This document shows, piece after piece, positions 7,979 to 35,089 of a stretch of DNA of 64,000 nucleotides (position 1 is its first letter; each line of letters opens with the position of its first letter). The DNA is from Sphingomonas sp. EC-HK361. Its GTDB lineage: Bacteria; Pseudomonadota; Alphaproteobacteria; Sphingomonadales; Sphingomonadaceae. A program made the position numbers and the translations under genes. The notes below the pieces were generated by a model. The model was not told the DNA's origin, made no database searches, and saw only the letters and a list, made by a program, of their open reading frames with translations. Location of the stretch: contig NZ_LR701493.1 of the NCBI RefSeq assembly GCF_902498785.1, forward strand, positions 605,459-669,458, in the 5' to 3' direction.

Positions 7979-8007
7979 TTGCACACCGGACCAATTCCCG
8001 CTACCGA
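7979..8007 (+). promoter_or_regulatory. Candidate sigma70-type promoter of the module A TonB receptor
   Basis: TTGCAC at 7979-7984 is separated by 17 bases from TACCGA at 8002-8007. The spacing is ideal and the -10 box is imperfect. The palindromic operator starts where the -10 ends, so a bound repressor would cover the transcription start. Predicted by eye only. Confidence 0.45.
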
Positions 8008-8024
8008 TTGGAAGCGCTTCCAAT
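8007..8024. promoter_or_regulatory. LacI-type operator, perfect palindrome ATTGGAAGCGCTTCCAAT
   Basis: An 18-bp perfect palindrome 65 bp upstream of the TonB receptor. Its 16-bp core TTGGAAGCGCTTCCAA recurs exactly at 17270-17285 before the GH3 gene. A central CG within an even palindrome of this length is typical of LacI-family operators, and the core resembles the CebR-type box TGGGAGCGCTCCCA. The LacI regulator at 14549 lies between the two sites and is the likely binder (inference). Confidence 0.85.
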
Positions 8025-8088
8025 TCGAAGCGCCAAGAATGGCGGATGCGTGCCGGATTGGGGCCGGCCACGTCCATGGGGAGGATGA

Positions 8089-11031
8089 ATGATGGTTCGC
8101 AGCGCGCGCGACGGTGCACCCGTGTCCCGGGTTTCGGCTGGCCTGTATCTTGCGGCATCGGCAATCGCGATGGCGGCGGCGGTGCCAGCGCTGGCGCAGG
8201 AAGCGACCGCGCCGGTGCCCGGCAGCACCGATCAGACGACACCCGATCAGCAGACGACGACCGCGCCCGCGCAGCAGCCCGGACAGGTTGCGCCCGACGA
8301 CCAGACGCAGGCGTCGGACATCGTCGTCACCGGCATTCGCCGCGGCATCAAGGATTCGATCGACCTCAAGAAGCGCGAAACGTCGATCGTCGAGGCGATC
8401 TCGGCGGAGGATATCGGCAAGCTGCCCGACGTCTCGATCGCGGAATCCATCGCGCGCCTGCCGGGCCTGGCGGCGCAGCGCGTCAACGGCCGTGCGCAGG
8501 TCATCTCGATCCGCGGCCTCGCGCCCGATTTCACCACGACGCTCCTCAATGGCCGCCAGCAGGCGAGTTCGGGCGACAACCGCGCGGTCGAGTTCGACCA
8601 GTATCCCTCGGAACTCCTATCCAGCGTCGTCATCTACAAGACGCCGGACGCGCAGATCGCGGGCTTCGGTCTGTCGGGCACCGCCGACCTGCGCACCGTC
8701 CGCCCGCTCGAATTCGGCAAGCGCGCCTTTGCGGTCAACGTGCGCGGTGAAAAGACCGAAGGCGCGCGCCTGAACCAGGATCTGCGCAACTGGGGCGGCC
8801 GCGCGAGCGTCAGCTATATCGACCAGTTCGCGAACGGCACGCTCGGCGTCGCGTTCGGCTATGCGCACCTCGATTCCCCGTCGCAGAACAAGCACTACAA
8901 GGCTTATGGCTATGAGGCGTTCGGCGACCAGACCGATGCCAATGGCAACCCGATCAACGTCGTCCAGCCCGACAGCGCCGATGGCGCGCTGCTGCTGAAC
9001 GGCCAGGAAGCCTTCCTCACTTCGCGCCTCAACAAGCGCGACGCCTTCATCGGCATCATCGAATGGCAGCCGAGCGAGAATGTCCACTCGACGATCGACG
9101 CCTATTATTCGAAGTTCGATCAGAAGGAGGTCACGCGCGGCGCGCAGTGGTTCTCCAACCCCTTCGCGGACGGCCTGACCTTCACCAACGTGACCGCGGA
9201 AGACCGCGACGGTTCCAAGTTCGCCGCAACCGGCACTGCCAACAATGCGATCCCGATCATCCGCAACGACTACAACACCCGCCAGGACGATCTCGTCTCG
9301 ATCGGCTGGAACAACGAGTTCAAGCTCGACGACCGCACGAAGTTCTTCACCGACCTGTCCTACTCGCGCAATCATCGTAAGGAGCAGATCGCGGAAACCT
9401 ATGCCGGCTACGGCCTTGGAGTCGGTGGCGTGAACCCGACGACGCAGACGGTCGGACGCACTAACGACACGATCGGCTTCACCGTGCCCGCCGATGGCTT
9501 CCCGACCTACGATCCCGGCCTCGACTATGCCGACGCGTCCAAGGTCTCGCTCGGCGACCGCGCGCCTTGGGGCGGGTGGGGCCATGACGGCGCGATCCGC
9601 TTCCCCGATGTGAAGGAATCGGTCTACGCGCTCGATCTCCGTCTGAATCACGAACTCGACGGCTTTTTCGACAGCGTCGATGTCGGCGTGAACTACACGC
9701 ACCGCTCGAAGAGCAAGTTCGTCAATGATAACGACCTGTTCCTGAAGAACGGCCGTCAGCAGACCCTCGTCGATGCCGGCGATCTCGTCACGCCGACCGA
9801 TCTCGGCTTCGTCGGCTTCGGCAATGTACTGAGCGTCGATCTGCGCACCGCGCTCGACAAATATTATGATGTCTCGCCGATCCGTGACTCCAACTTCTAC
9901 GACAAGAACTGGGGCATCACCGAGGATGTCATCACCTGGCACGGCAAGCTCAACATCGACTGGGGCCGGTTGAAGGGCAATGTCGGTGTCCAGATCATCG
10001 ACCAGACCCAGCGCTCCAGCGGCGTCATCATAAACGGGAACAGCCCGATCAACCGCGTCGATGGCGCAAGCTACACCGATATCCTGCCCAGCGTGAACCT
10101 GATCTACGATTTCGGCGGTGGCTTTAGGCTGCGTCTCGCCGCGTCGAAGACGACCGCGCGCCCGCGCATGGACGATCTGCGCGCCAACGTGTCGCCCGGC
10201 TTCAACCTGCTGGCGTGCGCCGGGCAGCCGTGCGGGCCGGGCACCGTCGTCAATCCGTGGTCGGCCAGCGGCGGCAACCCGAAGCTGAAGCCGTGGCGAG
10301 CCGATGCGCTCGACGCGTCCTTCGAATGGTATGTCAATCCGACGACCTATTTCGCGATCGCCGGCTTCTACAAGAAGCTCAACACCTACATCTACCAGCA
10401 GTCCGGTCTGTTTGACTTTACCGGCATCCCCCAGCCTGCCGATGTGTCGTTTCCGGCCGGCACCACGATCAGCCCGATCGGCCAGATCACGCTCCCCGCC
10501 AACGGCAAGGGCGGCAATCTGAAGGGGCTGGAATTCTCCGGCTCGTTCAACTTCGGCACGATCACGAACTTCCTCGACGGCCTGGGCGTCCTCGGCAGTC
10601 TGTCGCTGACCGAATCGAACCTCAACCCGACGTCGAACCCCGATCCGACGCAGGCGGTCCGGATTCCGGGGCTGTCGGGAACGATCTACAACGTCACCGC
10701 CTTCTACGAAAAAGGCGGCTTCCAGGCCCGTGTCAGCCAGCGTTACCGCTCAGCGTTCAAGGGGGAGGTTGTCCAGCTCTTCGCGACGCGCGGCTTCACC
10801 GAAATCCTCGCCGACAAGCAGGTCGATGCGCAGATCGGCTATACCATTCAGGGCGGCGCGCTGGAGGGGCTGGGCATCCTGTTCCAGGTCAACAACCTGA
10901 CCGACTCGCCCTACCGCACCCGGCTAGGCCTCGACGGTGGCGGCACGACGACGGCGGACGGCGCCTCGCTGCTTGAAACCTATGAGAAATACGGCCGGCA
11001 ATATCTGCTCGGCTTCAACTACCGCTTCTGA
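8089..11031 (+). CDS. TonB-dependent receptor (TonB-Xanth-Caul type), module A
   Basis: A 980-residue outer-membrane protein starting ATG-ATG after GGGGAGG. A signal peptide ends near ALAQE at residue 37. Then come a Pro/Gln/Thr-rich linker and the TonB box DIVVTG, followed by the plug (SIVEAISAEDIGKLPDVSIAE, ISIRGLAPDFTTTLLNGRQ). The rest is a 22-strand-type barrel ending in the aromatic residue of LGFNYRF. This is the receptor subfamily found in glycan-use loci of Caulobacter, Xanthomonas and sphingomonads. It would import oligosaccharides, probably beta-glucan fragments given the GH3-GH30-GH16 set downstream. An operator lies in its promoter, an intrinsic terminator follows, and a halogenase gene comes next. 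Confidence 0.95.
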   Translation: MMVRSARDGAPVSRVSAGLYLAASAIAMAAAVPALAQEATAPVPGSTDQTTPDQQTTTAPAQQPGQVAPDDQTQASDIVVTGIRRGIKDSIDLKKRETSIVEAISAEDIGKLPDVSIAESIARLPGLAAQRVNGRAQVISIRGLAPDFTTTLLNGRQQASSGDNRAVEFDQYPSELLSSVVIYKTPDAQIAGFGLSGTADLRTVRPLEFGKRAFAVNVRGEKTEGARLNQDLRNWGGRASVSYIDQFANGTLGVAFGYAHLDSPSQNKHYKAYGYEAFGDQTDANGNPINVVQPDSADGALLLNGQEAFLTSRLNKRDAFIGIIEWQPSENVHSTIDAYYSKFDQKEVTRGAQWFSNPFADGLTFTNVTAEDRDGSKFAATGTANNAIPIIRNDYNTRQDDLVSIGWNNEFKLDDRTKFFTDLSYSRNHRKEQIAETYAGYGLGVGGVNPTTQTVGRTNDTIGFTVPADGFPTYDPGLDYADASKVSLGDRAPWGGWGHDGAIRFPDVKESVYALDLRLNHELDGFFDSVDVGVNYTHRSKSKFVNDNDLFLKNGRQQTLVDAGDLVTPTDLGFVGFGNVLSVDLRTALDKYYDVSPIRDSNFYDKNWGITEDVITWHGKLNIDWGRLKGNVGVQIIDQTQRSSGVIINGNSPINRVDGASYTDILPSVNLIYDFGGGFRLRLAASKTTARPRMDDLRANVSPGFNLLACAGQPCGPGTVVNPWSASGGNPKLKPWRADALDASFEWYVNPTTYFAIAGFYKKLNTYIYQQSGLFDFTGIPQPADVSFPAGTTISPIGQITLPANGKGGNLKGLEFSGSFNFGTITNFLDGLGVLGSLSLTESNLNPTSNPDPTQAVRIPGLSGTIYNVTAFYEKGGFQARVSQRYRSAFKGEVVQLFATRGFTEILADKQVDAQIGYTIQGGALEGLGILFQVNNLTDSPYRTRLGLDGGGTTTADGASLLETYEKYGRQYLLGFNYRF

Positions 11032-11274: not shown

Positions 11275-12834
11275 ATGAACCAACTCAAACGCATCCTCAT
11301 CGCTGGCGGCGGCTCGGCCGGGTGGATGACGGCCGCGATGATGAGCCGGCTGTTCCAGGGGCTGTACGAGATCATCCTCGTCGAATCCGACGCAATCGGC
11401 ACCGTCGGCGTCGGCGAGGCGACGATCCCCGCGATCAAGAAATTCAACGAGCTGCTCGGCCTCAACGAGAATGAATTTCTCCAACGCACCCAGGGCACCT
11501 TCAAGCTCGGCATCCGCTTCATCGACTGGCTGCGCCCGGGCAGCAGTTACACCCACGGCTTCGGTGTCATCGGCCAGGACTTGGAATGGCTGCGCTGCCA
11601 CCAATATTGGCTGAAGATGCACGGACTCGGCCGCGCGAGCGCCCTCGACCATTTCTCGATCAACACCGCCGCCGTCCACCACAACAAGTTCATGCGTGCG
11701 CGCCCCGATCAGCCGCAATCGCCGATCGGCCAGATCGCCAACGCCTTCCATTTCGACGCCGGCCTCTACGCCGCCTATCTCGCCGACTACGCCCAGGCGC
11801 GAGGCGTGCAGCGGCGTGAGGGAAAGATCGCCACGGTCACGCTCGCGCCCGAGGACGGCCCAGAAAGCGGATTCGTCCGCTCGATCACGATGGCGGACGG
11901 CGAGACGATCGAGGCCGACCTCTTCATCGATTGCTCGGGCTTTCGCGGACTCATCATCGCCGAGGCGCTGGGCGCGGGCTATGACGATTGGAGCCACTGG
12001 CTCCCCTGCGACCGCGCGGTCGCGGTGCCGTCCGAGCGCTCCGACGATTTCACCCCCTACACCCGCTCCACCGCGCGCCCCGCCGGCTGGCAGTGGCGCA
12101 TCCCGCTCCAGCACCGCACCGGCAACGGCCATGTCTATGCCAGCCGCTGGATGAACGACGCGGAGGCCGAGGCGATCCTGCTCGACACGCTCGACGCCCC
12201 CGCCGCCGGAGACCCCCGCCGCCTGCGCTTCGTGCCGGGCAAGCGTACGCAAGCCTGGGTGAAGAACTGCGTCGCGATCGGCCTGGCGGGCGGCTTCCTG
12301 GAACCTCTGGAATCGACCGGCCTCCACCTCATCCAGTCCGCGATCCTGCGCCTCGTCCGGCTGCTTCCCGATGCCGGGTTCGATGCCGCCAACATCGCCG
12401 AGTTCAACCGCCAGACCGATTTCGAGTACGAACGCATCCGCGACTTCATCATCCTCCACTACAAGGCGACCGAGCGCGGCGACACGCCGTTCTGGCGCCA
12501 CGTCCGCGACATGGCCGTGCCTGCGACCCTCCAGCGCAAGATCGATCTCTTCGCCGCAAACGGGCGCATCTTCCGCGAAGATGACGAGCTGTTCGCCGAG
12601 GAAAGCTGGATCCAGGTCTTCATTGGCCAAGGGATCATCCCGCGCGGCTACGACCCGCTCGTCGACGCCAAGTCCCCCGACGAGATCGCGGCGTTCCTCG
12701 GCAACATCGAACAGGTCATCGCGCGCTGCGTCGAGGTGATGCCCACCCATGCGGAGTATGTCGCGAAGACCTGCCCCGCGCGCCCACTTACCGCTTCGGC
12801 GCGCCCGGTGCCGGGCTTTGCAGCCGCGCGATAA
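11275..12834 (+). CDS. Flavin-dependent tryptophan halogenase family protein (halogenase 1)
   Basis: A 519-residue PF04820 protein. FAD site: GGGSAGW (11-17). Key residues align with PrnA/RebH almost number for number: Lys77 (TFKLGIRF, the K79 equivalent that carries hypohalous acid), the W272-x-W274-x-I276-P277 motif, and E346-S347-T348-G349, which in PrnA supplies Glu346 and the halide-binding Thr348/Gly349. The chemistry therefore looks intact, needing FADH2 from a separate reductase. Family knowledge: relatives beside TonB receptors, such as BrvH from Brevundimonas, brominate indole in vitro, but the natural substrate is unknown. No signal peptide, so cytoplasmic. It overlaps the convergent cupin gene by 47 bp. 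Confidence 0.92.
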   Translation: MNQLKRILIAGGGSAGWMTAAMMSRLFQGLYEIILVESDAIGTVGVGEATIPAIKKFNELLGLNENEFLQRTQGTFKLGIRFIDWLRPGSSYTHGFGVIGQDLEWLRCHQYWLKMHGLGRASALDHFSINTAAVHHNKFMRARPDQPQSPIGQIANAFHFDAGLYAAYLADYAQARGVQRREGKIATVTLAPEDGPESGFVRSITMADGETIEADLFIDCSGFRGLIIAEALGAGYDDWSHWLPCDRAVAVPSERSDDFTPYTRSTARPAGWQWRIPLQHRTGNGHVYASRWMNDAEAEAILLDTLDAPAAGDPRRLRFVPGKRTQAWVKNCVAIGLAGGFLEPLESTGLHLIQSAILRLVRLLPDAGFDAANIAEFNRQTDFEYERIRDFIILHYKATERGDTPFWRHVRDMAVPATLQRKIDLFAANGRIFREDDELFAEESWIQVFIGQGIIPRGYDPLVDAKSPDEIAAFLGNIEQVIARCVEVMPTHAEYVAKTCPARPLTASARPVPGFAAAR

Positions 12835-13822
12835 GCTCCCGGCGCATCTGCGCTACGTCGCGCGGGTCCGTCGCCGCCAGGATGCCGCGCGCATGCGGCG
12901 GGATATGCGCGGCGGGATCGCCATCGCCCGCGAACACATAATGCGCGAACATCGCCCGCCAGTGCCGCTGCTGGTCGGCGGGCAGGGTGCGCAGCGTCAT
13001 CAGACCATGCAGCAGCGCGTCCCAAGGCGAACCCCCATCAGTCCGCGCCGCATTCCACCAGTAATTGACGAGCAGGTTGGCTGGCTCCAGCGCCTCGACA
13101 TGGTGATACCAGCCATAGGGAATGTAGAGCGCATCCCCCGGCCCGAGCTCCGCCTCCTGCGCGCTCGCCAGCGCGTCGGCAAAGCGCGGGTAGCGGGCGA
13201 GATCGGGCGCGGTCAGATGGACCATGCTCACCGGCGTGCCCGCGGGGGTCAAATGGAACGGCCCCATATACAGGTTGGGCAATTGCTCCGGCGCGAAAAG
13301 GGTGAAGCGCCGCCGACCGGCCGCGACGACCGCGACATTCTCCATCGGATCGTTGTGAATCGCGACGCGGGCGCGCGTGCCGATCCAGAGCCGCGGGGCA
13401 GCGTCGGCTGGAACGAGCGGCATCGCGTTCGCGGCGGCAAAGCTTGGCAGGACCGCGTCCGCGCTAATCGCCTGCACTGCCAGCGTATCGGGAACGGGCT
13501 CTGCCTCGGCGGCGAGCGCGCGCAGGAAGCCGGCCAGCGTATCGGGTCCGCGCACGAAATTCGTGCCGCGCAACCCCGCGTCATAATGCAGCCGCCCTTC
13601 CGCTTCGGGCGCGGCCCGCACGACGGGAACGGGCGTGTCGTTCGCCAGACTCGCGAGATAGTCCATCCATTGGGCGCCGGCGCGCACGACAGCCCAGTCG
13701 GCCGCCACGCCGCGCAGTACGACGGGTTCGGCGGCGGGGCGCACCTCGCCGTCGAAGATCGCAGGCGTTACGCCGTGGCGTTCGGGAATGGCGCGCATGA
13801 CCTGGTGGTGCTCGGCGCTCAT
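12788..13822 (-). CDS. JmjC-like cupin (cupin_8) oxygenase, module A
   Basis: A 344-residue protein of the cupin_8/JmjC group. The iron site is visible: H-x-D in RVAIHNDPMENVA at about residues 155-157, and the distal His in YIPYGWYHHVEAL near residue 239. A preceding LWIGTR strand and following LVNYWW segment are family hallmarks. Such enzymes use 2-oxoglutarate and oxygen to hydroxylate proteins or small molecules; this subfamily is repeatedly found beside tryptophan halogenases in glycan loci, with no established substrate. It is a paralogue of the cupin at 30982 (shared IWMGTR/LWIGTR, NLYLGP/NLYMGP, NLLVNYWW-type motifs). It is divergent from DUF6445, with only 29 bp between starts. Confidence 0.88.
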   Translation of the reverse strand: MSAEHHQVMRAIPERHGVTPAIFDGEVRPAAEPVVLRGVAADWAVVRAGAQWMDYLASLANDTPVPVVRAAPEAEGRLHYDAGLRGTNFVRGPDTLAGFLRALAAEAEPVPDTLAVQAISADAVLPSFAAANAMPLVPADAAPRLWIGTRARVAIHNDPMENVAVVAAGRRRFTLFAPEQLPNLYMGPFHLTPAGTPVSMVHLTAPDLARYPRFADALASAQEAELGPGDALYIPYGWYHHVEALEPANLLVNYWWNAARTDGGSPWDALLHGLMTLRTLPADQQRHWRAMFAHYVFAGDGDPAAHIPPHARGILAATDPRDVAQMRRELIARLQSPAPGAPKR

Positions 13823-13851: not shown

Positions 13852-14526
13852 GTGACGCCGAGCGTCAGCGTGGAGCGCGTCGGCGGCGAAGGCGAGCCGA
13901 TCGTCGTCATCGATAACTTCGCGCCTGATCCGGATGCGCTGGTCGACGCCGCGGCTGCGATCACCCTCGCGGCCGCCGGCGAGTTCTACCCCGGCCCGCG
14001 CGCGCCCGCGCCGCCCGAATATTTCGCGCAAGTTGGCGGGCTGGTCGCGGCGGCGGTCCGCAAGGTCTTCGGCTATCACGATCACCTCGCGGTCGACCGG
14101 GCGCTCTTCTCGCTCGCCACCACGGACCCTGCCGACCTGTCGCTTGCCCAGCGCATCCCGCATGTCGATTCCGTCGAGCCGGGGCGGATCGCGATCGTCC
14201 ACTATCTCTCGCGCACCGACTTTGGCGGCACGCGCTTCTTTCGCCACCGCGCGACCGGGTTCGAGACGATCGATGCAGTGCGGCACCGCGCCTATCTCGA
14301 TGCGCTCGCCGCCGAGTTCGCGACGCAGGGCGAGCCGCCGCCCGGCTATATCAGCACGGATTCGCCGCTTTTCGAAACGATCGCGACCGTGCCGCCGACG
14401 TGGAACCGCGCGATTCTCTACCGGTCGGGCCTGCTCCACTGCGCCGCGATCCCGAACGACATCGAGTTGCCCGCCGACGCGCGCACCGGGCGGCTGACGA
14501 TTGCAAGCTTCCTCACCGCGCGCTGA
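13852..14526 (+). CDS. DUF6445 family protein, possible 2OG-Fe(II) oxygenase fold
   Basis: A 224-residue protein from a GTG start. The sequence matches the DUF6445 pattern: an N-terminal VIDNFAPDPDALVD, a central RIPHVDSVEPGRIAIVHYLS, FGGTRFFRHRATG, and a late ILYRSGLLHCAAI. The H-x-D (HVDS) and distal H (LLHCAAI) are arranged as in 2-oxoglutarate/iron oxygenases such as prolyl hydroxylases, which suggests a related fold. That role is inferred, not demonstrated. It sits between a JmjC cupin (divergent) and a LacI gene 22 bp downstream; it is probably co-expressed with the regulator. No signal peptide. Confidence 0.78.
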   Translation: MTPSVSVERVGGEGEPIVVIDNFAPDPDALVDAAAAITLAAAGEFYPGPRAPAPPEYFAQVGGLVAAAVRKVFGYHDHLAVDRALFSLATTDPADLSLAQRIPHVDSVEPGRIAIVHYLSRTDFGGTRFFRHRATGFETIDAVRHRAYLDALAAEFATQGEPPPGYISTDSPLFETIATVPPTWNRAILYRSGLLHCAAIPNDIELPADARTGRLTIASFLTAR

Positions 14527-14548
14527 TCGTCCAATAGGCTTAGCGATC

Positions 14549-16573: not shown

Positions 16574-16615
16574 CGCAATCTCCTTGCCGCACGGGACGAA
16601 ACCGTTATGACCCGT

Positions 16616-16652: not shown

Positions 16653-16664
16653 AAGGGCGGTGAT

Positions 16665-17228: not shown

Positions 17229-17269
17229 CCCGGTTGACAATCGCTCCCTCAACCCGGAAAGCATTCTCA

Positions 17270-25600: not shown

Positions 25601-28600
25601 ATGCGCAGCGTCCACGCTCGCCTGCTTTCGCAACTGGCCATCGGCGTTTCCACCTTCGCGCTTGTCGCGGCGCCCGGCATTGCCGCCGCGCAGGATGCCG
25701 CCGCCACAGTCGGCAATCCCGGCCCCTCGCAGACCGATCCGCAGACCCCTACGGATCAGGCAGGCGACGACATCGTCGTTACCGGCATCCGTGCCTCGCT
25801 GCGCGAATCGATCAATCTGAAGCGCAACGCGCAGGGCGTCGTCGATGCGATCTCGGCCGAAGATATCGGCAAGTTTCCGGACACGAACCTCGCCGAGTCG
25901 CTCCAGCGCATCACCGGCGTGTCGATCGATCGTTCCAACGGCGAGGGGCAGTTCGTCACCGTCCGCGGCTTCGGCCCCGAATATAACCTCGTCGTGTTGA
26001 ACGGCCGCCAGATGCCGACATCGGTCATCGGCGACGGCAACAGCGCGCCGGTCTCGCGCTCGTTCGATTTCGCAAACCTGGCATCTGAAGGCGTCGCCGC
26101 GCTCGAGGTCTACAAGTCCGGCCGCGCGACCGTGCCCTCGGGCGGCATCGGTTCGACCATCAACATCCGCACGCCGCGCCCGTTCGACAAGATGGGGCTG
26201 CGCGGCTCGCTGTCGGCGCGCGGCGTCGTGGATACGTCGCAGAACGGCAAGAACGATATCACGCCGGAAGTCTCAGGGATCTTTTCCGACACCTTCGCCG
26301 ACGACCGGATCGGTGTGCTCATCACGGGCGCGTATCAGAAGCGTCATTTCAGCGTGAACCAGGCGAATGTCGGCTGGCGCGACGGCTATCTGGGGTCGGA
26401 AAACAACTGGGGTTCGCTCGCGCAGCCCGGCGATCCGCGCTATGCCAACATCACCAACCGGCCCGACGCGACCGACGTCTATCAGGTGCCGCAGAATGCT
26501 GGCTATGACGTGGTCAATGGCCGGCGGGAGCGGATCAACGGCCAGGCGGTGCTGCAATTCCGCCCCACCGACAGCCTGACCGCGACGGTCGACTACACCT
26601 ATTCGCGCAACACCGTCGACATTCGCGATAACAGCGTCGGCATCTGGTACAACCATAACGACACGTCGAGCGCATGGACCGACGGGCCGGTCGCGGGGCC
26701 GATCTTCTACACCGAGCGCTTCACCGCTGCCGAGGCCAAGGACCTCGCCTATTCGGCCGCGCAGACGTCTGCGCGCAGCGAGAACAAGTCGATCGGCGGC
26801 AATCTGGAATGGAAGGCGCCGGGCGGCGTGACGATGACGCTCGACGCGCATCACTCGACCGCGGAGTCGAAGCCGAACAACAAATACGGCAACAGCAACT
26901 CGGTCGGCACCGCGATCTTCGGGGTCCAGAACCAGACGATCAATTTCGATCACGACCTGCCGGTCATCTCGTTCAACATGTATCCGGGGATCGATCCGCT
27001 CAACAAGGCGCTGATCGTCCCAACCGGCAACGCGTTCCGCAATTCCTATTTCCGCGACGAGATCAACCAGGTCCGCGTGAGCGGCCATTACGACCACGAT
27101 CAGGGTTTTCTCGACAGCCTCGACTGGGGATTCGAGTTCACCGACAACAAGGTGCGCTCGGCCTACGGCGTCCTGCAGAACGATACCTGGGGCGGCACCG
27201 GCGGCGACAGCGCGGCGCAGCGTGCGGCGGCGGCGGCACTCGTGCCGGACGATATCTTCCAGCTCGTCAGCATCCCGGACAAGTTCTCCGGCATCAGCGG
27301 CGCGAACGATCCGTCGATCGTCCAGTCCTTCTATTCGTTCAATCTGCCGCGCATGGTGTCGATCCTCGACGCGGCCTACGGCATCTGCGGCGGCGATAAC
27401 GACTGCCGCACACCCTATACGACCGACAGGCGTATCCACGAAAAGACGATCTCGCCCTATTTCCAGTTCAACGGCAAGTTCGACATGTTCTCGCGGCCCG
27501 GGCATCTGATCGCCGGGGTTCGGTGGGAAGACACGGTCATCAATTCGTCGGCCCTGGTGCCGACCCCGGTCGGCACGCGCCAGAATTCGCAGAATGAATT
27601 CAACGTCCTGTACTCGGGCAGCGGCTTCACGACCTTCAAGGGGCATTACCAGAACTGGCTGCCCTCGGTCGATTTCGACATCGAGCCGCTCGACGGCGTC
27701 AAGCTGCGCGCATCGTACAGCCATACGATCACCCGCGCCGATTACGGCAGCCTGCAGGGCGGGCGTACGCTCGACACACTGTTCCGCGTCGGCGGAGGCA
27801 CGGGCCAGCAGGGCAATCCGGGCCTCATCCCCTACAAATCGAAGAATATCGATCTGTCGGCGGAATGGTATTACGGCAACGAAAGCTACATTTCGGTCGG
27901 CTATTTCCACAAGAACGTGTCGAACTATATCGGCGTGACACAGGTGAACACGCCGGCGTTCGGGCTGACGACGCCGGTGGGTGGCCCGCGCTATCAGGCT
28001 GCGCTTGCGGCACTGGGCGCGAATGCCACCTTCGCCCAGATCCGCGATTATATCGGGGTGAATTTCCCGAACACGGTGACGCGTGACGCACAGGGCAATC
28101 CGGTCACGATCCTCGGCCAGCCGAACGATCCGCTGGTCAACTTCGTGATCTCGACGCCGTTCAACAGCGATCAGACTGCGGCGGTCGACGGCTTCGAATT
28201 CGCCATCCAGCACAATTTCTGGAACACCGGCTTCGGCACGATCCTCAATTACACGATCGTCAACGGCAACCGGAAATACGACAACACCCTGCCGGCCAGT
28301 ATCTCGCAGTTCGCGATCACCGGCCTGTCGGACAGCGCCAACGCGGTGCTGTTCTTCGACAAATACGGCATTCAGGCGCGCGCGGCGTATAACTGGCGCG
28401 CGGAGTATCTCTCGGGGTCGGGGATCAACCCCTATTATATCGAGAGCTACGGCCAGCTCGATGCGAGCGCGAGCTACGCGATCACCCCCAATGTCGCGGT
28501 GTTCGCGGAAGGCATCAACCTGACCGGCACCGACCGCCGCGGCCATTTGCGCTCCGACCGCAACGTCTTCTTCTCCACGAAGCAGGATGCGCGGTATTCG

Positions 28601-28624
28601 GCGGGCGTGCGTTTCACTTTCTGA
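25601..28624 (+). CDS. TonB-dependent receptor (TonB-Xanth-Caul type), module B
   Basis: A 1007-residue outer-membrane receptor; ATG 25601 follows AGGGGAGGATTTT. The signal peptide ends near GIAAAQD (residue 31). The TonB box DDIVVTGIRASLRES precedes the plug (SAEDIGKFPDTNLAESLQRI, VTVRGFGPEYNLVVLNGRQM). A long barrel ends in GVRFTF. This receptor group serves carbohydrate uptake in sphingomonads. It is only moderately similar to the module A receptor, so the two probably take different oligosaccharides of the same glucan family. It shares an operator region with divergent GH3 B, and a strong terminator separates it from the halogenase run. Confidence 0.95.
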   Translation: MRSVHARLLSQLAIGVSTFALVAAPGIAAAQDAAATVGNPGPSQTDPQTPTDQAGDDIVVTGIRASLRESINLKRNAQGVVDAISAEDIGKFPDTNLAESLQRITGVSIDRSNGEGQFVTVRGFGPEYNLVVLNGRQMPTSVIGDGNSAPVSRSFDFANLASEGVAALEVYKSGRATVPSGGIGSTINIRTPRPFDKMGLRGSLSARGVVDTSQNGKNDITPEVSGIFSDTFADDRIGVLITGAYQKRHFSVNQANVGWRDGYLGSENNWGSLAQPGDPRYANITNRPDATDVYQVPQNAGYDVVNGRRERINGQAVLQFRPTDSLTATVDYTYSRNTVDIRDNSVGIWYNHNDTSSAWTDGPVAGPIFYTERFTAAEAKDLAYSAAQTSARSENKSIGGNLEWKAPGGVTMTLDAHHSTAESKPNNKYGNSNSVGTAIFGVQNQTINFDHDLPVISFNMYPGIDPLNKALIVPTGNAFRNSYFRDEINQVRVSGHYDHDQGFLDSLDWGFEFTDNKVRSAYGVLQNDTWGGTGGDSAAQRAAAAALVPDDIFQLVSIPDKFSGISGANDPSIVQSFYSFNLPRMVSILDAAYGICGGDNDCRTPYTTDRRIHEKTISPYFQFNGKFDMFSRPGHLIAGVRWEDTVINSSALVPTPVGTRQNSQNEFNVLYSGSGFTTFKGHYQNWLPSVDFDIEPLDGVKLRASYSHTITRADYGSLQGGRTLDTLFRVGGGTGQQGNPGLIPYKSKNIDLSAEWYYGNESYISVGYFHKNVSNYIGVTQVNTPAFGLTTPVGGPRYQAALAALGANATFAQIRDYIGVNFPNTVTRDAQGNPVTILGQPNDPLVNFVISTPFNSDQTAAVDGFEFAIQHNFWNTGFGTILNYTIVNGNRKYDNTLPASISQFAITGLSDSANAVLFFDKYGIQARAAYNWRAEYLSGSGINPYYIESYGQLDASASYAITPNVAVFAEGINLTGTDRRGHLRSDRNVFFSTKQDARYSAGVRFTF

Positions 28625-28710: not shown

Positions 28711-30276
28711 GTGGTTGACGCAGCAATCGAGAGGGTCGTGATCGTCGGCGGTGGCACCGCCGGCTGGCTCGCCGCCTGTCGCATCGCTGCCGCGGCCGAT
28801 CCTGCGGCCGAGCGCCCCGTCTCGGTCACGCTGGTCGAATCGCCCGATATCGCGACGATCGGGGTGGGCGAGGGGACGTGGCCGACGATGCGCCGCACCA
28901 TGGCGCGGATCGGGATCGACGAAGCCGAACTGCTGATCGCCTGCGATGCGTCGTTCAAGCAGGGCTCGCGCTTCGACGGATGGGTGACGGGCGAGGCGGG
29001 TGACAGCTACCACCATCCCTTCACCCCGCCGATCGCCGGCGACCCGCGCGAAGCGGCGCGGCTGCGCCCCGGCGACGCCTTTGCCGATCGCCTGTGTGCC
29101 CAGCCGCAAATCTGCGCGCTCGATCTCGCGCCGCGCCAGCGATCGATGCCTGGCTATGCCGGCGCGCTGAACTACGCCTATCACCTCGATGCCGCGAAGC
29201 TCGCGGCGCTGCTGAAGCGGCACGCGACCGGGCGGCTCGGGGTGCGGCACGTCCGCGACCACGTGCTCGATGTGGAGGCGGCCGAGGGCGGGGATATCGC
29301 GTCGGTGCGGACGCGCGACAATGGGGCGATCGCCGGCGATCTGTTCATCGATTGCACCGGCCACGCCGCGCTGCTGATCGGCGAGCATTGCGGCATCGAC
29401 GTTGTCGATCGCAGCGACGAGCTGTTCAACGACCGTGCGCTGGCCGTGCAGGTGCCGGTCGCCCCCGGCAGCGCAATCGCCGCGCAGACCAACGCGACCG
29501 CGCATGCGGGCGGATGGATCTGGGATATCGGGCTGCCGACGCGGCGCGGGGTCGGTTGCGTCTACGCCTCCACCTTCATGGATGACGCCGCGGCGGAGGC
29601 GACGCTGAAAGCGTATCTGCGCCGCACCACGCCCGATTGCGATGCCGATGCGCTGAACATCCGCCTGCTCACCTTCCGATCGGCGCACCGTGAGCGGTTT
29701 TGGGCCGGCAACTGCCTTGCGATCGGGCAATCGGCGGGGTTCCTCGAACCGCTCGAGGCCTCGGCGATCGTGATGATCGAGCTGGCGCTCGATGCGCTCA
29801 TTGACGACTTTCCCGCCAACCGCGCGGTCATGGCGGTGCAGGCGGAGCGCTTCAACGCGCAGTTTCGCTATCGCTGGGACCGGATCGTCGAGTTCCTGAA
29901 GCTCCATTATGTACTGAGCCGGCGCACCGAACCTTATTGGCGGGCGCACCGCGATGCTGGCTCGATCCCGTCGCGGCTCGCCCAATCGCTCGAACTGTGG
30001 CGCCACCGCGCGCCGGCCGCGATCGACTTTCCGGCGAAGGACGAGGTTTTCCCTGGCGCCAGCTACCAGTTCGTTCTCTACGGCATGGGCTTCCTGCTGC
30101 CTTCGGGCGTGGCGGTTGCGGAGCGCGAGGGGGGCGATATGGCCGCTGCGATACGCCAGGTCGAACAGCGCGGGCGCGCGCTTGCCGCGAGCCTTCCGAC
30201 GAACCGCGCCTATCTCGATGCGCTGCGTGCCGAGCACGCGGGCACCGACCCGATCCTCGAAAGATATGCCGAATGA
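28711..30276 (+). CDS. Divergent flavin-dependent tryptophan halogenase-like protein (halogenase 2)
   Basis: A 521-residue PF04820 protein from a GTG start. FAD site GGGTAGW is present near residues 12-18 and the hypohalous-acid lysine is kept as Lys83 (SFKQGSRF). Two other landmarks differ from PrnA/RebH. The W-x-W-x-I-P motif reads W269-I-W271-D-I-G-L-P. The halide-binding ESTG reads E349-A350-S351-A352, so both Thr and Gly are changed. The sequence is also distant from halogenases 1 and 3. It may have weak or altered halogenation, use another halide, or act as a plain flavin oxygenase. It overlaps SapC by 4 bp and heads a tightly packed operon. Confidence 0.88.
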   Translation: MVDAAIERVVIVGGGTAGWLAACRIAAAADPAAERPVSVTLVESPDIATIGVGEGTWPTMRRTMARIGIDEAELLIACDASFKQGSRFDGWVTGEAGDSYHHPFTPPIAGDPREAARLRPGDAFADRLCAQPQICALDLAPRQRSMPGYAGALNYAYHLDAAKLAALLKRHATGRLGVRHVRDHVLDVEAAEGGDIASVRTRDNGAIAGDLFIDCTGHAALLIGEHCGIDVVDRSDELFNDRALAVQVPVAPGSAIAAQTNATAHAGGWIWDIGLPTRRGVGCVYASTFMDDAAAEATLKAYLRRTTPDCDADALNIRLLTFRSAHRERFWAGNCLAIGQSAGFLEPLEASAIVMIELALDALIDDFPANRAVMAVQAERFNAQFRYRWDRIVEFLKLHYVLSRRTEPYWRAHRDAGSIPSRLAQSLELWRHRAPAAIDFPAKDEVFPGASYQFVLYGMGFLLPSGVAVAEREGGDMAAAIRQVEQRGRALAASLPTNRAYLDALRAEHAGTDPILERYAE

Positions 30277-30989
30277 CGACCCACGCCATCCTGACCGCAG
30301 AAGCGCACCGCGACCTCCGGGTGCGGCAGGAGCGCGGCGCGCATCTCGGCGACGCGCTGATGTGCGCGGTCGCGATGCCCGCGGAGTTTCGCCAGCTTCA
30401 GGCCGAATATGCAATCCTGTTCCGCCTCAATCCCGAACGCGACCAGTTCAGCGCGGTCGCGATGTTCGGGTTCGAGAATGGCGAGAACCTGTATCTGGAC
30501 GGCGACCGCTGGGACGCGCGCTACCGCCCGCTCGCGATCGACATCCAGCCGTTCCTCATCGGCGGCAAGCCCGAGGAGGACGGCGACAAGCAGGTCCATG
30601 TCGACATGGCGTCGCCGCGGATCGGCGGCGAGGAGGGCGTGCGGGTGTTCGACCGGCAGGGGCTGCCGACCCCGTATCTGGAACGCGTTGCGGAAAATCT
30701 CGGCGCGCTCGACGCGGGCTTTCGCGATGCCCCCGGATTCTTCACCGCGCTCGAACGCCATGCGCTGCTCGAACCGTTCACGCTCGAGGTGACGCTGGAC
30801 GACGGCAGCACCAACAGGCTCGTCGGCTTCCACACCATCAATGAGGATCGGCTGGAGCAGCTCGACGCGCAGGCGCTCGGCGAGCTGCATGCCGCCGGCC
30901 ATCTGATGCCGATCTTCATGGCGGTTGCTTCGCTTTCCAACCTTTCCGCGCTGATCGCGCGCAAGAATCGCCGGATGTTCGGTGGCTGA
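30273..30989 (+). CDS. SapC family protein
   Basis: A 238-residue protein matching SapC (PF07277): an N-terminal HRDLRVRQER, AVAMPAEFRQLQAEYAILFR, and YRPLAIDIQPFLIG, with a late LHAAGHLMPIFMAVASLSNLSALIARKN. SapC was named from the S-layer region of Campylobacter, but its biochemical role is unresolved. In sphingomonads, caulobacters and xanthomonads it recurs between tryptophan halogenases, cupin_8 genes and TonB receptors. It overlaps both neighbours (4 bp with halogenase 2, 8 bp with the cupin), pointing to coupled translation. No signal peptide, so it is probably cytoplasmic or membrane-peripheral. Confidence 0.88.
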   Translation: MTTHAILTAEAHRDLRVRQERGAHLGDALMCAVAMPAEFRQLQAEYAILFRLNPERDQFSAVAMFGFENGENLYLDGDRWDARYRPLAIDIQPFLIGGKPEEDGDKQVHVDMASPRIGGEEGVRVFDRQGLPTPYLERVAENLGALDAGFRDAPGFFTALERHALLEPFTLEVTLDDGSTNRLVGFHTINEDRLEQLDAQALGELHAAGHLMPIFMAVASLSNLSALIARKNRRMFGG

Positions 30990-32013
30990 AGCCGATCCCG
31001 GCCTGCTCGCCGGCCTGAAACCGGTGGAGGAGATCGCGGTGGCGGATGCCGCCGATCTCGATGCGCGGCTGCTGGCGTCGGACACGCCGTTCATCGTGCG
31101 CGGGCTGGTGGCGGACTGGCCGCTGGTGAAGGCGGGGCGGCAATCGGCGGGCGCAGCGCGCGACTATCTGCTCGGCCATCACCGCGACCGGCAGTTCGTC
31201 GTCTCGGTCGGGCAGACCGGCAGCGACGGGCGGCTGTTCTACGACGACGCGATGGCGATGAACTTCCGCACGCTGAACGCGCGGCTGCCCGAAATCTTTG
31301 CGCGGATCGCCGACATGGCCGGGCACGCGGACGCCCCACCCGTCTATCTCGCGTCGATCGACATGCACGAATTCTTCGACGGGCTGCACGAGGCGAACCA
31401 TGTCGATCTGGGCGACCGCACCCCGCTCGCCAGCATCTGGATGGGCACCCGCACGCGGATCGCGGCGCATAACGACATGCCCGACAATCTCGCCTGCGTC
31501 GCGGTCGGCGCGCGGCGCTTCACGCTGTTTCCCCCCGACCAGTTCCGCAACCTGTATCTCGGCCCGCTCGACAACACGCCGGCCGGCCGCGCGGTGAGCA
31601 TGGTCGATTTCCATGCGCCCGACGCCGCGCGCTTCCCGCGTTTTGCGGACGCGCTAGCGCATGCGCAGGTCGCGGAGCTCAAGGCAGGCGACGCGCTCTA
31701 CATCCCCGCCTTGTGGTGGCACCATGTCGAGGGGCTCGCCGCGTTCAACGTGCTGGTGAATTACTGGTGGCGCGATTCCCCGCGCTGGATGGGACAGCCG
31801 CAGGACGTGCTCAACCATGCGCTCATGGCGATCCGCGACCTCCCGCCGGCGCAGAAGGACTATTGGCGCGACATGTTCGATTACTACGTCTTTGCGAACG
31901 ACGACGCGGTCACCGCGCATATCCCCGCCGGCGGACGCGGCATCCTCGATCCGATGACGCCGACGCTCGCCGGGCGAATCCGCGCCTTCCTGCTGCGGGC
32001 GCTGAGCCGATGA
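30982..32013 (+). CDS. JmjC-like cupin (cupin_8) oxygenase, module B
   Basis: A 343-residue protein from a GTG start that overlaps SapC by 8 bp. Iron ligands: His163 and Asp165 in RIAAHNDMPDNLA, and a distal His at 247/248 in LWWHHVEGL. The family features (SIWMGTRTRI, FTLFPPDQFRNLYLGPLD, VLVNYWW) are all present, so the 2-oxoglutarate/Fe(II) site looks functional. It is paralogous to the module A cupin. JmjC-type cupins often hydroxylate protein side chains; a protein target such as the receptor or SapC is conceivable but unproven. Its stop overlaps the start of halogenase 3 by 4 bp. Confidence 0.9.
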   Translation: MAEADPGLLAGLKPVEEIAVADAADLDARLLASDTPFIVRGLVADWPLVKAGRQSAGAARDYLLGHHRDRQFVVSVGQTGSDGRLFYDDAMAMNFRTLNARLPEIFARIADMAGHADAPPVYLASIDMHEFFDGLHEANHVDLGDRTPLASIWMGTRTRIAAHNDMPDNLACVAVGARRFTLFPPDQFRNLYLGPLDNTPAGRAVSMVDFHAPDAARFPRFADALAHAQVAELKAGDALYIPALWWHHVEGLAAFNVLVNYWWRDSPRWMGQPQDVLNHALMAIRDLPPAQKDYWRDMFDYYVFANDDAVTAHIPAGGRGILDPMTPTLAGRIRAFLLRALSR

Positions 32014-33500
32014 CGCCGCGCCGGATCGTCATCGCGGGCGGCGGCACCGCGGGCTGGATGGCGGCGGCGGCCATCATGCGCACGATGGGGCGCACGGCGG
32101 AGGTCACGCTCATCGAATCGGACGCGATCGGCACGGTCGGCGTCGGGGAATCGACGATCCCGCCGCTCATCACCTTCAACCGGCTGCTCGGCATCAACGA
32201 GGCAGAGTTCATGGCCGCCACCCAGGCGACCTTCAAGCTCGGCATCGCGTTCGACGGGTGGAAGGCGCCGGGGCACGGCTATTTCCATTCCTTCGGCCTG
32301 ACCGGCAAGGATCACTGGGCGGCCGGTTTCCAGCATTTCTGGCTCAATGCGCAGACCCGCGGGCAGACCCAGTCCTATGACGACTATTGCCTGGAACTGA
32401 TCGCCGCGCGCGAGGGGAAGTTCGCGCATCTGCCGAACGATCGGATGAACTACGCCTACCAGCTCGATTCGACGCTCTACGGCCGCTTCCTGCGCCGCAT
32501 GGCGGAAGGCGACGGCGTGACGCGGGTCGAGGGCAAGATCGCGCAGGTCGATCTGGACGGGACAAGCGGTCATATCGCGGCGCTGTTGCTCGAATCGGGC
32601 GTGCGGATCGAAGGCGACCTGTTCGTCGACTGTACCGGCTTTCGCGCGCTGCTGATCGAACAGGCGCTCCACACCGGCTTCGACGACTGGACCAACTGGT
32701 TGCCGTGCGACGCGGCGATCGCGGTGCAGACCGAAAGCGTGGCGGCGGCCGTGCCCTACACGCGCGCGATGGCGCATGATGCGGGCTGGCAGTGGCGCAT
32801 CCCGCTGCAGCACCGGGTCGGCAACGGCATCGTCTATTGCCGGCGCTATCTGGACGACGATGCCGCGCTCGACCGGCTGCTGAATAATGTCGAGGGGCGC
32901 GTGCTGACGACCCCGAACAAGCTCCGATTTGTGACCGGCGCGCGGCGCAAGCAGTGGCACCGCAACTGCATCGCGATGGGGCTGTCGGGCGGGTTCATGG
33001 AGCCGCTGGAATCGACGAGCATCCATCTGATCCAGCGCGCGATCCTGCGGCTCATACGAATGATGCCGCATGGCGAGATCAGCGCGCGCGACATCGATGA
33101 GTTCAACGAGCAGCAGCATCTCGACATGCTGCAGATCCGCGATTTCCTGATCCTCCACTACAAGGCGACCGACCGGCGCGACAGCGGCTTCTGGCGGCAA
33201 TGCGCGGCGATGGACGTGCCCGACAGCCTGGCCCACCGGATCGCGCTGTTCCGCGAAACGGGGCGCGTTTTCCGCAAGAACGAGGAGCTTTTCGCGGAAA
33301 ACAGCTGGGTGCAGGTGATGATGGGGCAGGGAATCATGCCGCGGACCTGGCACCCGATCGCGGAAAAGTTGAGCGATGACGATCTTGCCAAGTTCATGGC
33401 GGGCTTGCGCGACGGCGTGACCGCGACGGTGCGCAGCCTTCCCGACCATGCGAGCTATGTCGCCAGTTTCTGCGGCACGCCGCGCAGCGACGCGGCCTGA
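32010..33500 (+). CDS. Flavin-dependent tryptophan halogenase family protein (halogenase 3)
   Basis: A 496-residue PF04820 protein whose ATG overlaps the cupin stop. The longer open frame from 31713 reads inside the cupin and is rejected. FAD site GGGTAGW is near residues 10-16, the catalytic Lys is Lys76 (TFKLGIAF), and the motif W260-Q-W262-R-I-P is intact. The halide site reads E334-S-T-S337, so the glycine after Thr in PrnA is Ser here. It is close to halogenase 1 (shared SDAIGTVGVGE and GWQWRIPLQHR) and far from halogenase 2. Such enzymes halogenate indoles with FADH2; the physiological substrate in glycan loci is unknown. Confidence 0.92.
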   Translation: MTPRRIVIAGGGTAGWMAAAAIMRTMGRTAEVTLIESDAIGTVGVGESTIPPLITFNRLLGINEAEFMAATQATFKLGIAFDGWKAPGHGYFHSFGLTGKDHWAAGFQHFWLNAQTRGQTQSYDDYCLELIAAREGKFAHLPNDRMNYAYQLDSTLYGRFLRRMAEGDGVTRVEGKIAQVDLDGTSGHIAALLLESGVRIEGDLFVDCTGFRALLIEQALHTGFDDWTNWLPCDAAIAVQTESVAAAVPYTRAMAHDAGWQWRIPLQHRVGNGIVYCRRYLDDDAALDRLLNNVEGRVLTTPNKLRFVTGARRKQWHRNCIAMGLSGGFMEPLESTSIHLIQRAILRLIRMMPHGEISARDIDEFNEQQHLDMLQIRDFLILHYKATDRRDSGFWRQCAAMDVPDSLAHRIALFRETGRVFRKNEELFAENSWVQVMMGQGIMPRTWHPIAEKLSDDDLAKFMAGLRDGVTATVRSLPDHASYVASFCGTPRSDAA

Positions 33501-33508
33501 ACCGCCTC

Positions 33509-34597
33509 ATGGGTCGCCGTCGCCAGTCCGTTACCATTCGCCATGTCGCGGCCGATGCCGGGGTGTCGCTGCAGACGGTCAGCCGAGTCATCAACAAGGA
33601 GCCGAACGTCCGGCCCGAGATGATGGCGCGCGTCCAGGCGTCGATCGAGAAGCTGGGCTATGTGCCCTCGATTGCCGCGCAGCGCATGGGCGGCTCGCGC
33701 TCCTATCTGATCGTCGCGCTCAACGACCGCGAGCGCACCATCGCCGACTGGCGCAGCCGGCAGGGTACCGACTGGGTCGATCAGATGCTGCTCGGCGGGA
33801 TGCTGACCTGCGCCGAGCACGGCTACCGCCTGATCGTCGAGCTGGTCGATACGCATAGCGACCATATCGAGCGCGAGCTGATGGGCGCGGTCGCGGCGCT
33901 CCAGCCGGACGGCGTGATCCTGACGCCGCCGCATTCGGAGAATGTGCTCATCACCCGGCTGCTCGATCACCACGGGATCAGCTTTGCGCGGATCGGATCG
34001 CTCAAGGACGGCAGCGGCTTTGCGCTGACGATGGACGACGAGCGCGCCGCGCGGCTCGCGACCGAGCATCTGGCGGAACTCGGTCACCGGCGCATCGGGT
34101 TCATCGCCGGATCGACCGAATATGAACTGAGCGGCTGGCGTGTGGCGGGGTGGCGGGCGGCGATGGCGGCCTTGGGGCTGGGCGTCGACGGGCTGCTCGC
34201 GCAGGGCGATTTCAGCTACGAATCGGGCAGGCGCGCGGCGGCGACGCTGCTGTCGAGCGAAGACCCGCCGACCGCGATCATCGGCAGCAACGACCAGATG
34301 ACGCTCGCGACGCTCGAGGTCGCGCGCGAACGCGGGCTGGACATTCCGGCCGACCTTTCGCTGGTCAGCTTCGACGACACCCCGATCGTCCGCTTCACGC
34401 ACCCGCCGCTGACCGCGATCGTCCAGCCGATCGCGGAGGTGGCGGCACGTGCGGTCGAACTCATCATCGCGCAGAAAGCGGGGCGACCGACGCCGGGCGA
34501 GCCGATCGTGGTGCCGGCAAGCCTCGTCGCGCGCGGATCGAGCGCACCGGCGCGCACGCTGGCAGACCAGCCTTCCAAATCGCTGTTGCGTCCCTAG
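33509..34597 (+). CDS. LacI family transcriptional regulator, module B
   Basis: A 362-residue repressor. The helix-turn-helix TIRHVAADAGVSLQTVSRVI and hinge region are followed by the sugar-sensing domain (IIGSNDQMTLATLEVARERG, LVSFDDTPIVRFTHPPLTA). The recognition helix (SLQTVS) differs from that of the module A regulator (GRTTVS), in line with two different operators. It starts 8 bp after halogenase 3 and ends directly before the methionine sulfoxide reductase, so it is part of the operon. It probably binds the GAACGTTCAC boxes at 25475 and 25539 (inference). Confidence 0.92.
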   Translation: MGRRRQSVTIRHVAADAGVSLQTVSRVINKEPNVRPEMMARVQASIEKLGYVPSIAAQRMGGSRSYLIVALNDRERTIADWRSRQGTDWVDQMLLGGMLTCAEHGYRLIVELVDTHSDHIERELMGAVAALQPDGVILTPPHSENVLITRLLDHHGISFARIGSLKDGSGFALTMDDERAARLATEHLAELGHRRIGFIAGSTEYELSGWRVAGWRAAMAALGLGVDGLLAQGDFSYESGRRAAATLLSSEDPPTAIIGSNDQMTLATLEVARERGLDIPADLSLVSFDDTPIVRFTHPPLTAIVQPIAEVAARAVELIIAQKAGRPTPGEPIVVPASLVARGSSAPARTLADQPSKSLLRP

Positions 34598-35089
34598 ATG
34601 GGCGCGATGTTTCAGTTCGATATCGCCGCCGGCTCGAAGGCCGATCTTTACCACGACCTCACGGCTGCGCTCGACGCGCTGACGGCGGACGAGCCCGATG
34701 CCATCGCCAACATGGCGAACGCGGCCGCGCTGATCTGGCAATATCTGCCCGACCTCAACTGGGCGGGATTCTACCGGGCGGTGGACGGAGAACTTGTCCT
34801 CGGCCCGTTCCAGGGCAAGCCGGCGTGCATCCGCATCGCGCTGGGCAGCGGAGTCTGCGGCACCGCGGCCGCGACGCGCGAGACGCAGCTCGTCGCCGAC
34901 GTCCACGCCTTTCCCGGCCACATCGCCTGCGACGCGGCGAGCGCTTCGGAAATCGTCGTGCCGATCGTTCATGAGGGGCGACTGGTCGGGGTGCTCGACC
35001 TCGACAGCCCGAGCGCCGGCCGTTTCGATGCGGACGATCGCAAGGGCTGCGAAGCGCTCGTCGCAATCCTCGCCCCCCGGGTCGCCTGA
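34598..35089 (+). CDS. msrC: Free methionine-(R)-sulfoxide reductase (fRMsr, GAF domain)
   Basis: A 163-residue single GAF-domain protein. Three cysteines, Cys77, Cys87 and Cys111, have exactly the 10- and 24-residue spacing of the redox cysteines of E. coli fRMsr (84, 94, 118). NWAGFY, GPFQGKPAC and DLDSP are also family signatures. It reduces free methionine-R-sulfoxide with thioredoxin. The ATG abuts the LacI stop codon with no gap, so it is in the module B transcript; an in-frame ATG at 34607 is an alternative start. Its place behind halogenases, which make hypohalous acid, is suggestive but may be chance. Confidence 0.92.
   Translation: MGAMFQFDIAAGSKADLYHDLTAALDALTADEPDAIANMANAAALIWQYLPDLNWAGFYRAVDGELVLGPFQGKPACIRIALGSGVCGTAAATRETQLVADVHAFPGHIACDAASASEIVVPIVHEGRLVGVLDLDSPSAGRFDADDRKGCEALVAILAPRVA

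Follow-up and report, generated by a model that had tools for sequence, protein, structure and literature searches.

Halogenase and hydroxylase genes recur beside TonB-dependent receptors in sugar-uptake loci of Sphingomonas and related bacteria: a possible receptor modification kit

A stretch of 64,000 nucleotides from Sphingomonas sp. EC-HK361 (contig NZ_LR701493.1, positions 605,459 to 669,458), here called the window, in whose own coordinates all positions are given, holds two neighbouring modules of sugar-uptake genes. Each combines a TonB-dependent receptor of the TonB-Xanth-Caul type, a LacI-family regulator and glycoside hydrolases (GH) with genes for flavin-dependent halogenases (PF04820), a JmjC-like oxygenase (Cupin_8) and a protein of the DUF6445 or SapC family, which we refer to together as the kit. 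A preliminary description of this DNA had proposed that receptor, halogenase and cupin genes belong together in related bacteria; the association turns out to be real and recurrent, and it is kept despite rearrangement. The explanation that we tentatively prefer, at something short of an even chance, is that the kit works in the cytoplasm and modifies the newly made receptor before export, each module consisting of sugar-regulated operons for beta-glucan uptake (receptor, GH16/GH30/GH3, MFS transporter, LacI) with this oxidative kit built in.

The association was counted in 12 genomes chosen for carrying a relative of halogenase A, the halogenase of module 1. This choice guarantees one locus in each genome, a small share of the 134 PF04820 halogenases found there (split matches merged, two below 23 bits dropped). 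Chance expectations were taken from gene density for a distance of 5 kb. A halogenase lies within that distance of 34 of the 44 Cupin_8 genes (1.5 expected), 15 of the 17 DUF6445 genes (0.65 expected) and 14 of the 28 SapC genes (0.9 expected). SapC is also found close to Cupin_8 (12 of 28; 0.3 expected) and in no case close to DUF6445 (0 of 28). For at least 85 of the 134 halogenases, one of 150 listed receptors stands within 5 kb, against 6.1 expected; the count is a lower bound because 380 receptors were found altogether. The preliminary description had regarded co-occurrence no better than chance as the outcome that would speak against its idea; in these counts, which ignore kinship, the kit genes stand far above the gene-density expectation.

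For an unbiased view of the neighbourhood, genes of 86 halogenase clusters, picked by codon usage, were grouped into families. The commonest besides the halogenase itself were the receptor (70 clusters), LacI (34), Cupin_8 (33), GH3 (30), DUF6445 (14) and SapC (13), and further families were GH43 (13), GH97 (11), GH30 (11), MFS (11 and 10) and GH13 (9); those labelled GH43, GH97, MFS and GH13 were each named from one Pfam representative. By geometry, a receptor lies within 3 kb of the halogenase in 69 of the 86. Since the kit occurs with GH3, GH30, GH43, GH97 and GH13 loci, its constant partner is the receptor and not one sugar. That the receptor is the commonest neighbour also counts in favour of its being the target.

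It had been suggested earlier that the kit belongs to glucan uptake. This holds for the window, where a GH3 enzyme in each module is joined by a GH16 enzyme with laminarinases among its nearest structures and by a GH30 enzyme whose nearest structure, 5ngk, is labelled glucosylceramidase and is presumably a beta-1,6-glucanase; judged from these enzymes, the substrate of the two loci is likely a glucan. As a specificity of the kit it does not hold, GH43, GH97 and GH13 loci carrying it too. The GH3 and GH43 loci suggest plant or algal material, and the kit could then serve to transform or detoxify aromatic groups arriving with such glycans, for example aglycones of phenolic or indolic type that GH3 releases. 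We consider this rather improbable: halogenases are also carried by GH13 and GH97 loci, whose likely substrate is an alpha-glucan that brings no aromatic aglycone, and those Cupin_8 relatives whose function is known have macromolecules as substrates. In its favour, halogenases of this group accept indoles, according to the available parts of two papers (PMC5945002, PMC7336383).

How far does the pairing reach? Sixty genomes were drawn evenly from the phylum, 59 of them new. PF04820 matches occur in 29 of the 59 and pass the cut-off of 21 bits in 23; we required more than 200 bits because the remaining matches reach only 18-56 bits. Four of the 59 genomes (G019, G027, G036, G043) have such a halogenase, and all four also have SapC, a family present in 22 of the 60 genomes. 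For Cupin_8, matched in 10 of the 59 genomes and above the cut-off in 6, a threshold of more than 90 bits leaves three genomes, two of them among the four with a halogenase. The parts of the kit are thus far rarer here than in the 12 genomes chosen through halogenase A. Five of the ten halogenase clusters of this sample were fetched, four of these being picked for an adjoining SapC. A receptor stands in the same run in all five and SapC in four; the order receptor-SapC-cupin-halogenase recurs in three, one of which also has DUF6445. The run halogenase B-SapC-cupin-halogenase C, as in module 2, is found in betaproteobacterial loci of Rubrivivax and Leptothrix (L072, L080). SapC itself is often on its own: 31 of its 35 matches in the 59 new genomes lie more than 5 kb from a strong halogenase and 4 lie within 5 kb, which argues against a strict unit. 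Of these 35 SapC loci 18 were fetched, and in the 14 not picked for a halogenase (L252-L264, L270) our own profiles found no receptor, cupin or halogenase within about 8 kb. A cupin of 92 bits in genome G038 (L271) has no other kit part nearby.

The gene map of the two modules (8008-21831 and 23146-35089) comes from Pfam and NCBIfam profile scans of the open reading frames (ORFs) of the window, and the parts named in the preliminary description were found at or near the places it gave:

8008..8023, no strand assigned: predicted LacI-type operator TTGGAAGCGCTTCCAA, an exact palindrome 5' of receptor 1
8089..11031, plus: TonB-dependent receptor 1, TonB-Xanth-Caul (TIGR01782, 534 bits, cut-off 310)
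11275..12834, plus: halogenase A, flavin-dependent halogenase family (PF04820, 636 bits, cut-off 21)
12788..13822, minus: Cupin_8 (JmjC-like) oxygenase 1 (PF13621, 197 bits; JmjC_2 weak)
13852..14526, plus: DUF6445, predicted Fe(II)/2-oxoglutarate oxygenase (PF20043, 253 bits)
14501..15640, plus: LacI-family regulator 1 (PF00356, PF13377)
15689..16654, minus: epimerase/SDR-type gene (PF01370, 38.7 bits)
16614..17228, plus: TetR-family regulator (PF00440)
17270..17285, no strand assigned: predicted LacI-type operator, copy 2, 5' of GH3, an exact match to the first
17222..19576, plus: GH3 enzyme of module 1 (PF00933/PF01915), its true start probably downstream of 17285
19573..20964, plus: GH30 enzyme (PF02055/PF17189 in ORF 18751-20964; nearest PDB entry 5ngk)
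20992..21831, plus: GH16, laminarinase-like (PF00722; nearest PDB entry 6xof, then the laminarinase 3iln)
21859..23133, minus: MFS transporter between the modules (PF07690)
23146..25404, minus: GH3 enzyme of module 2 (PF00933/PF01915)
25472-25485 and 25538-25551, no strand assigned: two imperfect GTGAACGTTCAC-type palindromes, 2 mismatches each, possible second operator
25601..28624, plus: TonB-dependent receptor 2, TonB-Xanth-Caul (TIGR01782, 598 bits, cut-off 310)
28711..30276, plus: halogenase B, divergent subfamily (PF04820, 376 bits, cut-off 21)
30273..30989, plus: SapC-family protein (PF07277, 213.5 bits)
30982..32013, plus: Cupin_8 (JmjC-like) oxygenase 2 (PF13621, 231 bits)
about 32010..33500, plus: halogenase C (PF04820, 626 bits in ORF 31713-33500, cut-off 21)
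33509..34597, plus: LacI-family regulator 2 (PF00356, PF13377)
34598..35089, plus: GAF-domain protein at the end of module 2 (PF13185)

Halogenase B, SapC, Cupin_8 and halogenase C of module 2 are consecutive genes with overlapping ends. Over the whole window our own profiles find one SapC (module 2), one DUF6445 (module 1), two Cupin_8, two LacI, two GH3 and three halogenase genes. A plus-strand ORF at 12749-13855, running across cupin 1, has no Pfam match and was rejected as spurious. The modules are not a recent duplication, since receptors 1 and 2 fall in separate supported clades. From 264 halogenase A relatives 80 loci were retained, and the closest two, at 78% identity, sit in Sphingomonas genomes. 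Orthologues of receptor 1 and GH30 are each broken into two ORFs in Sphingomonas rhizophila (L056), which suggests decay of that locus. Directly 5' of module 1, the minus strand at 2847-7986 encodes an FAD (flavin adenine dinucleotide) oxidoreductase, a Rieske ring-hydroxylating oxygenase and an M20 peptidase, which we do not tie to the kit.

Regulation offers a further link between these genes. The two exact copies of TTGGAAGCGCTTCCAA compare with an expectation of 0.18 for the window at up to 3 mismatches. When no more than 1 mismatch is allowed, the palindrome has 80 matches in loci L001-L080, where 40 control palindromes of the same composition average 0.03. It stands near the 5' ends of 49 of 70 receptor 1 genes (TBDR1), 8 of 12 GH3a genes and 6 of 67 GH30 genes, and more sparsely at cupin1 (4 of 30), LacI1 (3 of 56) and DUF6445 (2 of 18). 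None of 79 halogenase A genes has it, and the halogenase would be transcribed by read-through from the receptor promoter. Where a cupin or DUF6445 gene has been displaced to the other side, it can bear an operator copy of its own: L015 and L019 have one 5' of DUF6445, and L019 has one 5' of a cupin. In L033 and L051 the copy lies between cupin and LacI and could serve either. From its family and position we infer that LacI1 is the protein that binds the predicted operator. The place given to LacI in the module by the preliminary description is borne out in that a predicted LacI-type operator is common to the promoters of receptor and GH3 genes, joined in some few relatives by those of cupin and DUF6445. 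For module 2, the GTGAACGTTCAC-type palindromes that separate GH3 from receptor 2 do not exceed chance in the window, since 28 of 100 shuffles contain at least as many. Better palindromes occupy the same site in the orthologous loci L081 and L161, and L119 gives no support; going by these sites, they are a possible second operator.

Could the genes adjoin through history alone, with no functional link? Neighbourhoods can persist by descent in related bacteria, and the co-location counts take no account of kinship. We nevertheless find this scarcely credible. The enrichment is about 14- to 40-fold, the betaproteobacterial loci repeat the same gene run, and displaced cupin and DUF6445 genes share the predicted operator in a few loci.

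All three halogenases of the window keep the FAD-binding GxGxxG motif and the catalytic lysine and glutamate, whose roles are understood from PrnA and RebH. WxWxIP is kept in halogenases A and C, so that A has Lys77, Glu346 and this motif together. Halogenase B, like its nearest solved relatives, reads WxWxIG. Its nearest PDB entries are 9ltb, 2pyx and 9lu2; in the divergent group that it forms with 9ltb and 2pyx, WxWxIG and EPLEASA replace WxWxIP and EPLEST, and these changes may alter its halide or oxygen chemistry. The nearest solved structures of halogenase A are BrvH of Brevundimonas (6frl, 507 bits), 9luq (485 bits) and Xcc4156 of Xanthomonas campestris (6y1w, 482 bits). As far as the available text of the corresponding papers goes, BrvH and Xcc4156 have open active sites and do not use free tryptophan, their native substrates are unknown, and peptides have been suggested (PMC5945002, PMC7336383). 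These papers give enzyme chemistry, and a search of that text finds neither TonB nor receptor; here the finding is the genomic setting.

An alternative proposal is that the kit yields a small metabolite or peptide signal, halogenated or hydroxylated, whose synthesis is turned on together with glucan use. The adjoining receptor would then import this product, or competitors would be its target. Among PF04820 enzymes, those with a known function belong mostly to secondary metabolism. The proposal seems to us unlikely, because no biosynthetic core gene is found among the named recurrent neighbour families of the 86 clusters (nine named by label, ten by one Pfam representative, families in 6 or fewer clusters being mostly unnamed). 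BrvH itself can be read either way: it halogenates free indole in vitro, with low activity, in the available part of the report (PMC5945002).

Not every halogenase in these arrays is catalytic. Across the 12 genomes, 117 of 135 halogenase ORFs keep the catalytic lysine and glutamate. The other 18 comprise 3 fragments and 15 long ORFs without both residues, and 14 of these 15 directly adjoin an intact copy on the same strand (loci with long dead paralogues are L092, L097, L100, L108, L116, L123, L126, L128, L136, L140, L144, L150, L154 and L163). In two arrays from three genomes, the ratio of nonsynonymous to synonymous substitution rates (dN/dS) is 0.25-0.38 for dead copies against 0.16-0.32 for their intact neighbours. 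The dead copies are thus under purifying selection and may be partner subunits; adaptors or heterodimer subunits are a possible role for them. Broken halogenase copies occur at L156:12453-13679 and L158:7919-9642 in the Brevundimonas albigilva genome (G010, also the source of L052).

The Cupin_8 oxygenases keep their active sites too. Every row of their alignment (63 of 63, with at least 55 distinct) carries the HxD...H iron ligands, both cupins of the window included. The nearest solved relative of Cupin_8 oxygenase 2 is FIH, which hydroxylates protein side chains. Unlike FIH, the kit cupins have arginine (63 of 63 rows) in the column of the lysine with which FIH binds 2-oxoglutarate, and we therefore class them as enzymes that possibly work alike and not as FIH orthologues.

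DUF6445 may be a further member of this chemistry. H104-x-D106 is present in 21 of 21 aligned sequences, a distal H196 in 20, and R214, 18 residues after H196, in 21; in a larger set of 35 rows (33 distinct) HxD is found in 35, the distal histidine in 34 and the arginine in 35. HxD...H...R is the pattern of Fe(II)/2-oxoglutarate oxygenases, and DUF6445 is thus predicted to be probably another hydroxylase. A GGTxF motif of DUF6445 is also seen in some oxygenases of these genomes. By its motifs, then, DUF6445 (PF20043) looks like an unrecognised family of such oxygenases. Profile comparisons lean in this direction too, but faintly. The 2OG-FeII_Oxy_3 profile weakly matches 3 of 21 members (best E 0.031), and hhalign against three oxygenase subsets gives E values of 0.0046, 0.0098 and 0.036, a thin margin over the controls (reversed 0.44-0.74, LacI 0.24, GH3 0.049, SapC 0.028, Cupin_8 0.023). 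Two oxygenase subsets compared with each other as a positive control reach only 0.0018. Against PDB profiles DUF6445 has no match. The same idea was tried for SapC and rejected: the invariant columns of a four-sequence alignment lack HxD...H and hhalign gave nothing. In Pfam and PDB, SapC has no credible relative other than SapC itself.

Where would these proteins act? Judged by eye and from a crude hydropathy count, signal peptides are absent from halogenases A-C and cupins 1-2 and present in the receptors, GH30, GH16 and one GH3. Most of the kit should therefore meet its target in the cytoplasm. A cytoplasmic target need not be the receptor. It could be another protein of the locus, such as LacI, or tRNA, with oxygen or halide status gating receptor expression. 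The cytoplasmic look of halogenases and cupins suits this idea, and 34 of the 86 halogenase clusters contain a LacI of the main cluster; the other 52 have no such LacI in the fetched flank, against a receptor in 70 of 86, and we rate the idea as improbable.

The receptor is in our opinion the most likely choice of target. If correct, halogenases, Cupin_8 enzymes and DUF6445 would alter side chains of the new receptor, aromatic ones and others, while it is still in the cytoplasm, with SapC as a helper or carrier. Sec export would follow, and the halogenation or hydroxylation would then change glycan-binding or surface-exposed loops of the receptor. We place modification before export because the kit looks cytoplasmic, the receptor is the commonest partner, peptides were suggested as substrates of BrvH and Xcc4156, and QhpG offers a precedent. 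QhpG, in the available text of its description, is a peptidyl tryptophan dihydroxylase of quinohemoprotein amine dehydrogenase, a protein that later goes to the periplasm (PMC7876137). It has a halogenase-like flavoenzyme structure and acts on tryptophan inside a protein, as the kit would. Its NCBIfam profile matches halogenases B and C weakly, at 35 and 24 bits, far below the cut-off of 240; in addition, the QhpG substrate is a cross-linked small subunit and not a receptor, and no halide chemistry is involved. A bolder version, which we regard as doubtful, is a sugar-induced system of post-translational modification in Gram-negative bacteria. Cytoplasmic halogenases, JmjC-type and DUF6445 hydroxylases, to which dead halogenase paralogues present the substrate as adaptors, would decorate TonB-dependent receptors ahead of export, tuning glycan binding or hiding the receptor from phages and bacteriocins. 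A paper on marine metatranscriptomes guesses, in its available part and without this gene context, that an unknown tryptophan halogenase may join virus-host receptor interactions (PMC11337851).

The receptors themselves were searched for traces of modification. Distances between halogenases track those between receptors (r 0.66 over 69 pairs; within-genome reshuffling gives a mean of 0.03 and at most 0.14). In an alignment of 69 halogenase-linked and 54 unlinked receptors, the latter picked from 88 candidates, some columns differ between the groups, such as a tyrosine of the plug (84% of linked, 26% of unlinked) and a glycine (71% and 4%). Mean tryptophan content is 14.7 in linked and 11.2 in unlinked receptors and is also higher on average in three sister contrasts; we gave this no weight because carbohydrate-binding receptors may be rich in tryptophan anyway.

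Several observations weigh against modification of the receptor. The distance correlation is also expected if whole loci were duplicated, transferred or inherited jointly. No tryptophan column in that alignment is both general and specific to linked receptors; the commonest is present in 64% of linked and 74% of unlinked sequences, and in the three sister contrasts changes at tryptophan columns are about as frequent as at others. On the receptor tree the label linked or unlinked switches just 6 times, and a glycine, the single column tested there, followed it in about 2 of 6 independent pairs. DUF6445 and SapC are harder to place in the cell, as their hydropathy peaks, at 2.0, lie not far below the 2.1-2.2 of the receptors. 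Finally, in 17 of the 86 halogenase clusters the fetched flank contains no receptor of the TonB-Xanth-Caul type; L148, which is among these 17, carries a TonB receptor of another kind.

The surroundings of the kit are familiar. Receptor, LacI, GH enzymes and MFS transporter stand together in TonB-dependent carbohydrate utilisation loci (of the carbohydrate utilisation, CUT, or polysaccharide utilisation locus, PUL, type). To our knowledge, halogenase, Cupin_8, DUF6445 and SapC genes are absent from the usual description of such loci. Regulon databases may list halogenase and SapC genes beside TonB receptors, with no function given. We found no description of a halogenase/hydroxylase kit in sugar receptor loci in the openly licensed literature that was searched; the word undescribed, used in the preliminary description, stands within that literature and does not extend beyond it. 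The parts are known families, the locus is of a known kind, that of a carbohydrate receptor, and the combination is new as far as the openly licensed papers searched show. If receptor modification holds, it could turn out to be categorically new.

For halogenases of this group there are crystal structures and enzyme assays but no known natural substrate, and their gene context names a few candidates; decoration of the receptor, if true, would supply the natural substrate of the BrvH/Xcc4156 group. The same context would suggest a function for DUF6445 and for part of SapC. Many bacteria show the pairing of kit and receptor, which hints at a chemical modification, as yet unexplained, that goes with nutrient uptake. 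If it is the receptor that is modified, a chemical layer would be added to nutrient uptake, one that is not looked for today.

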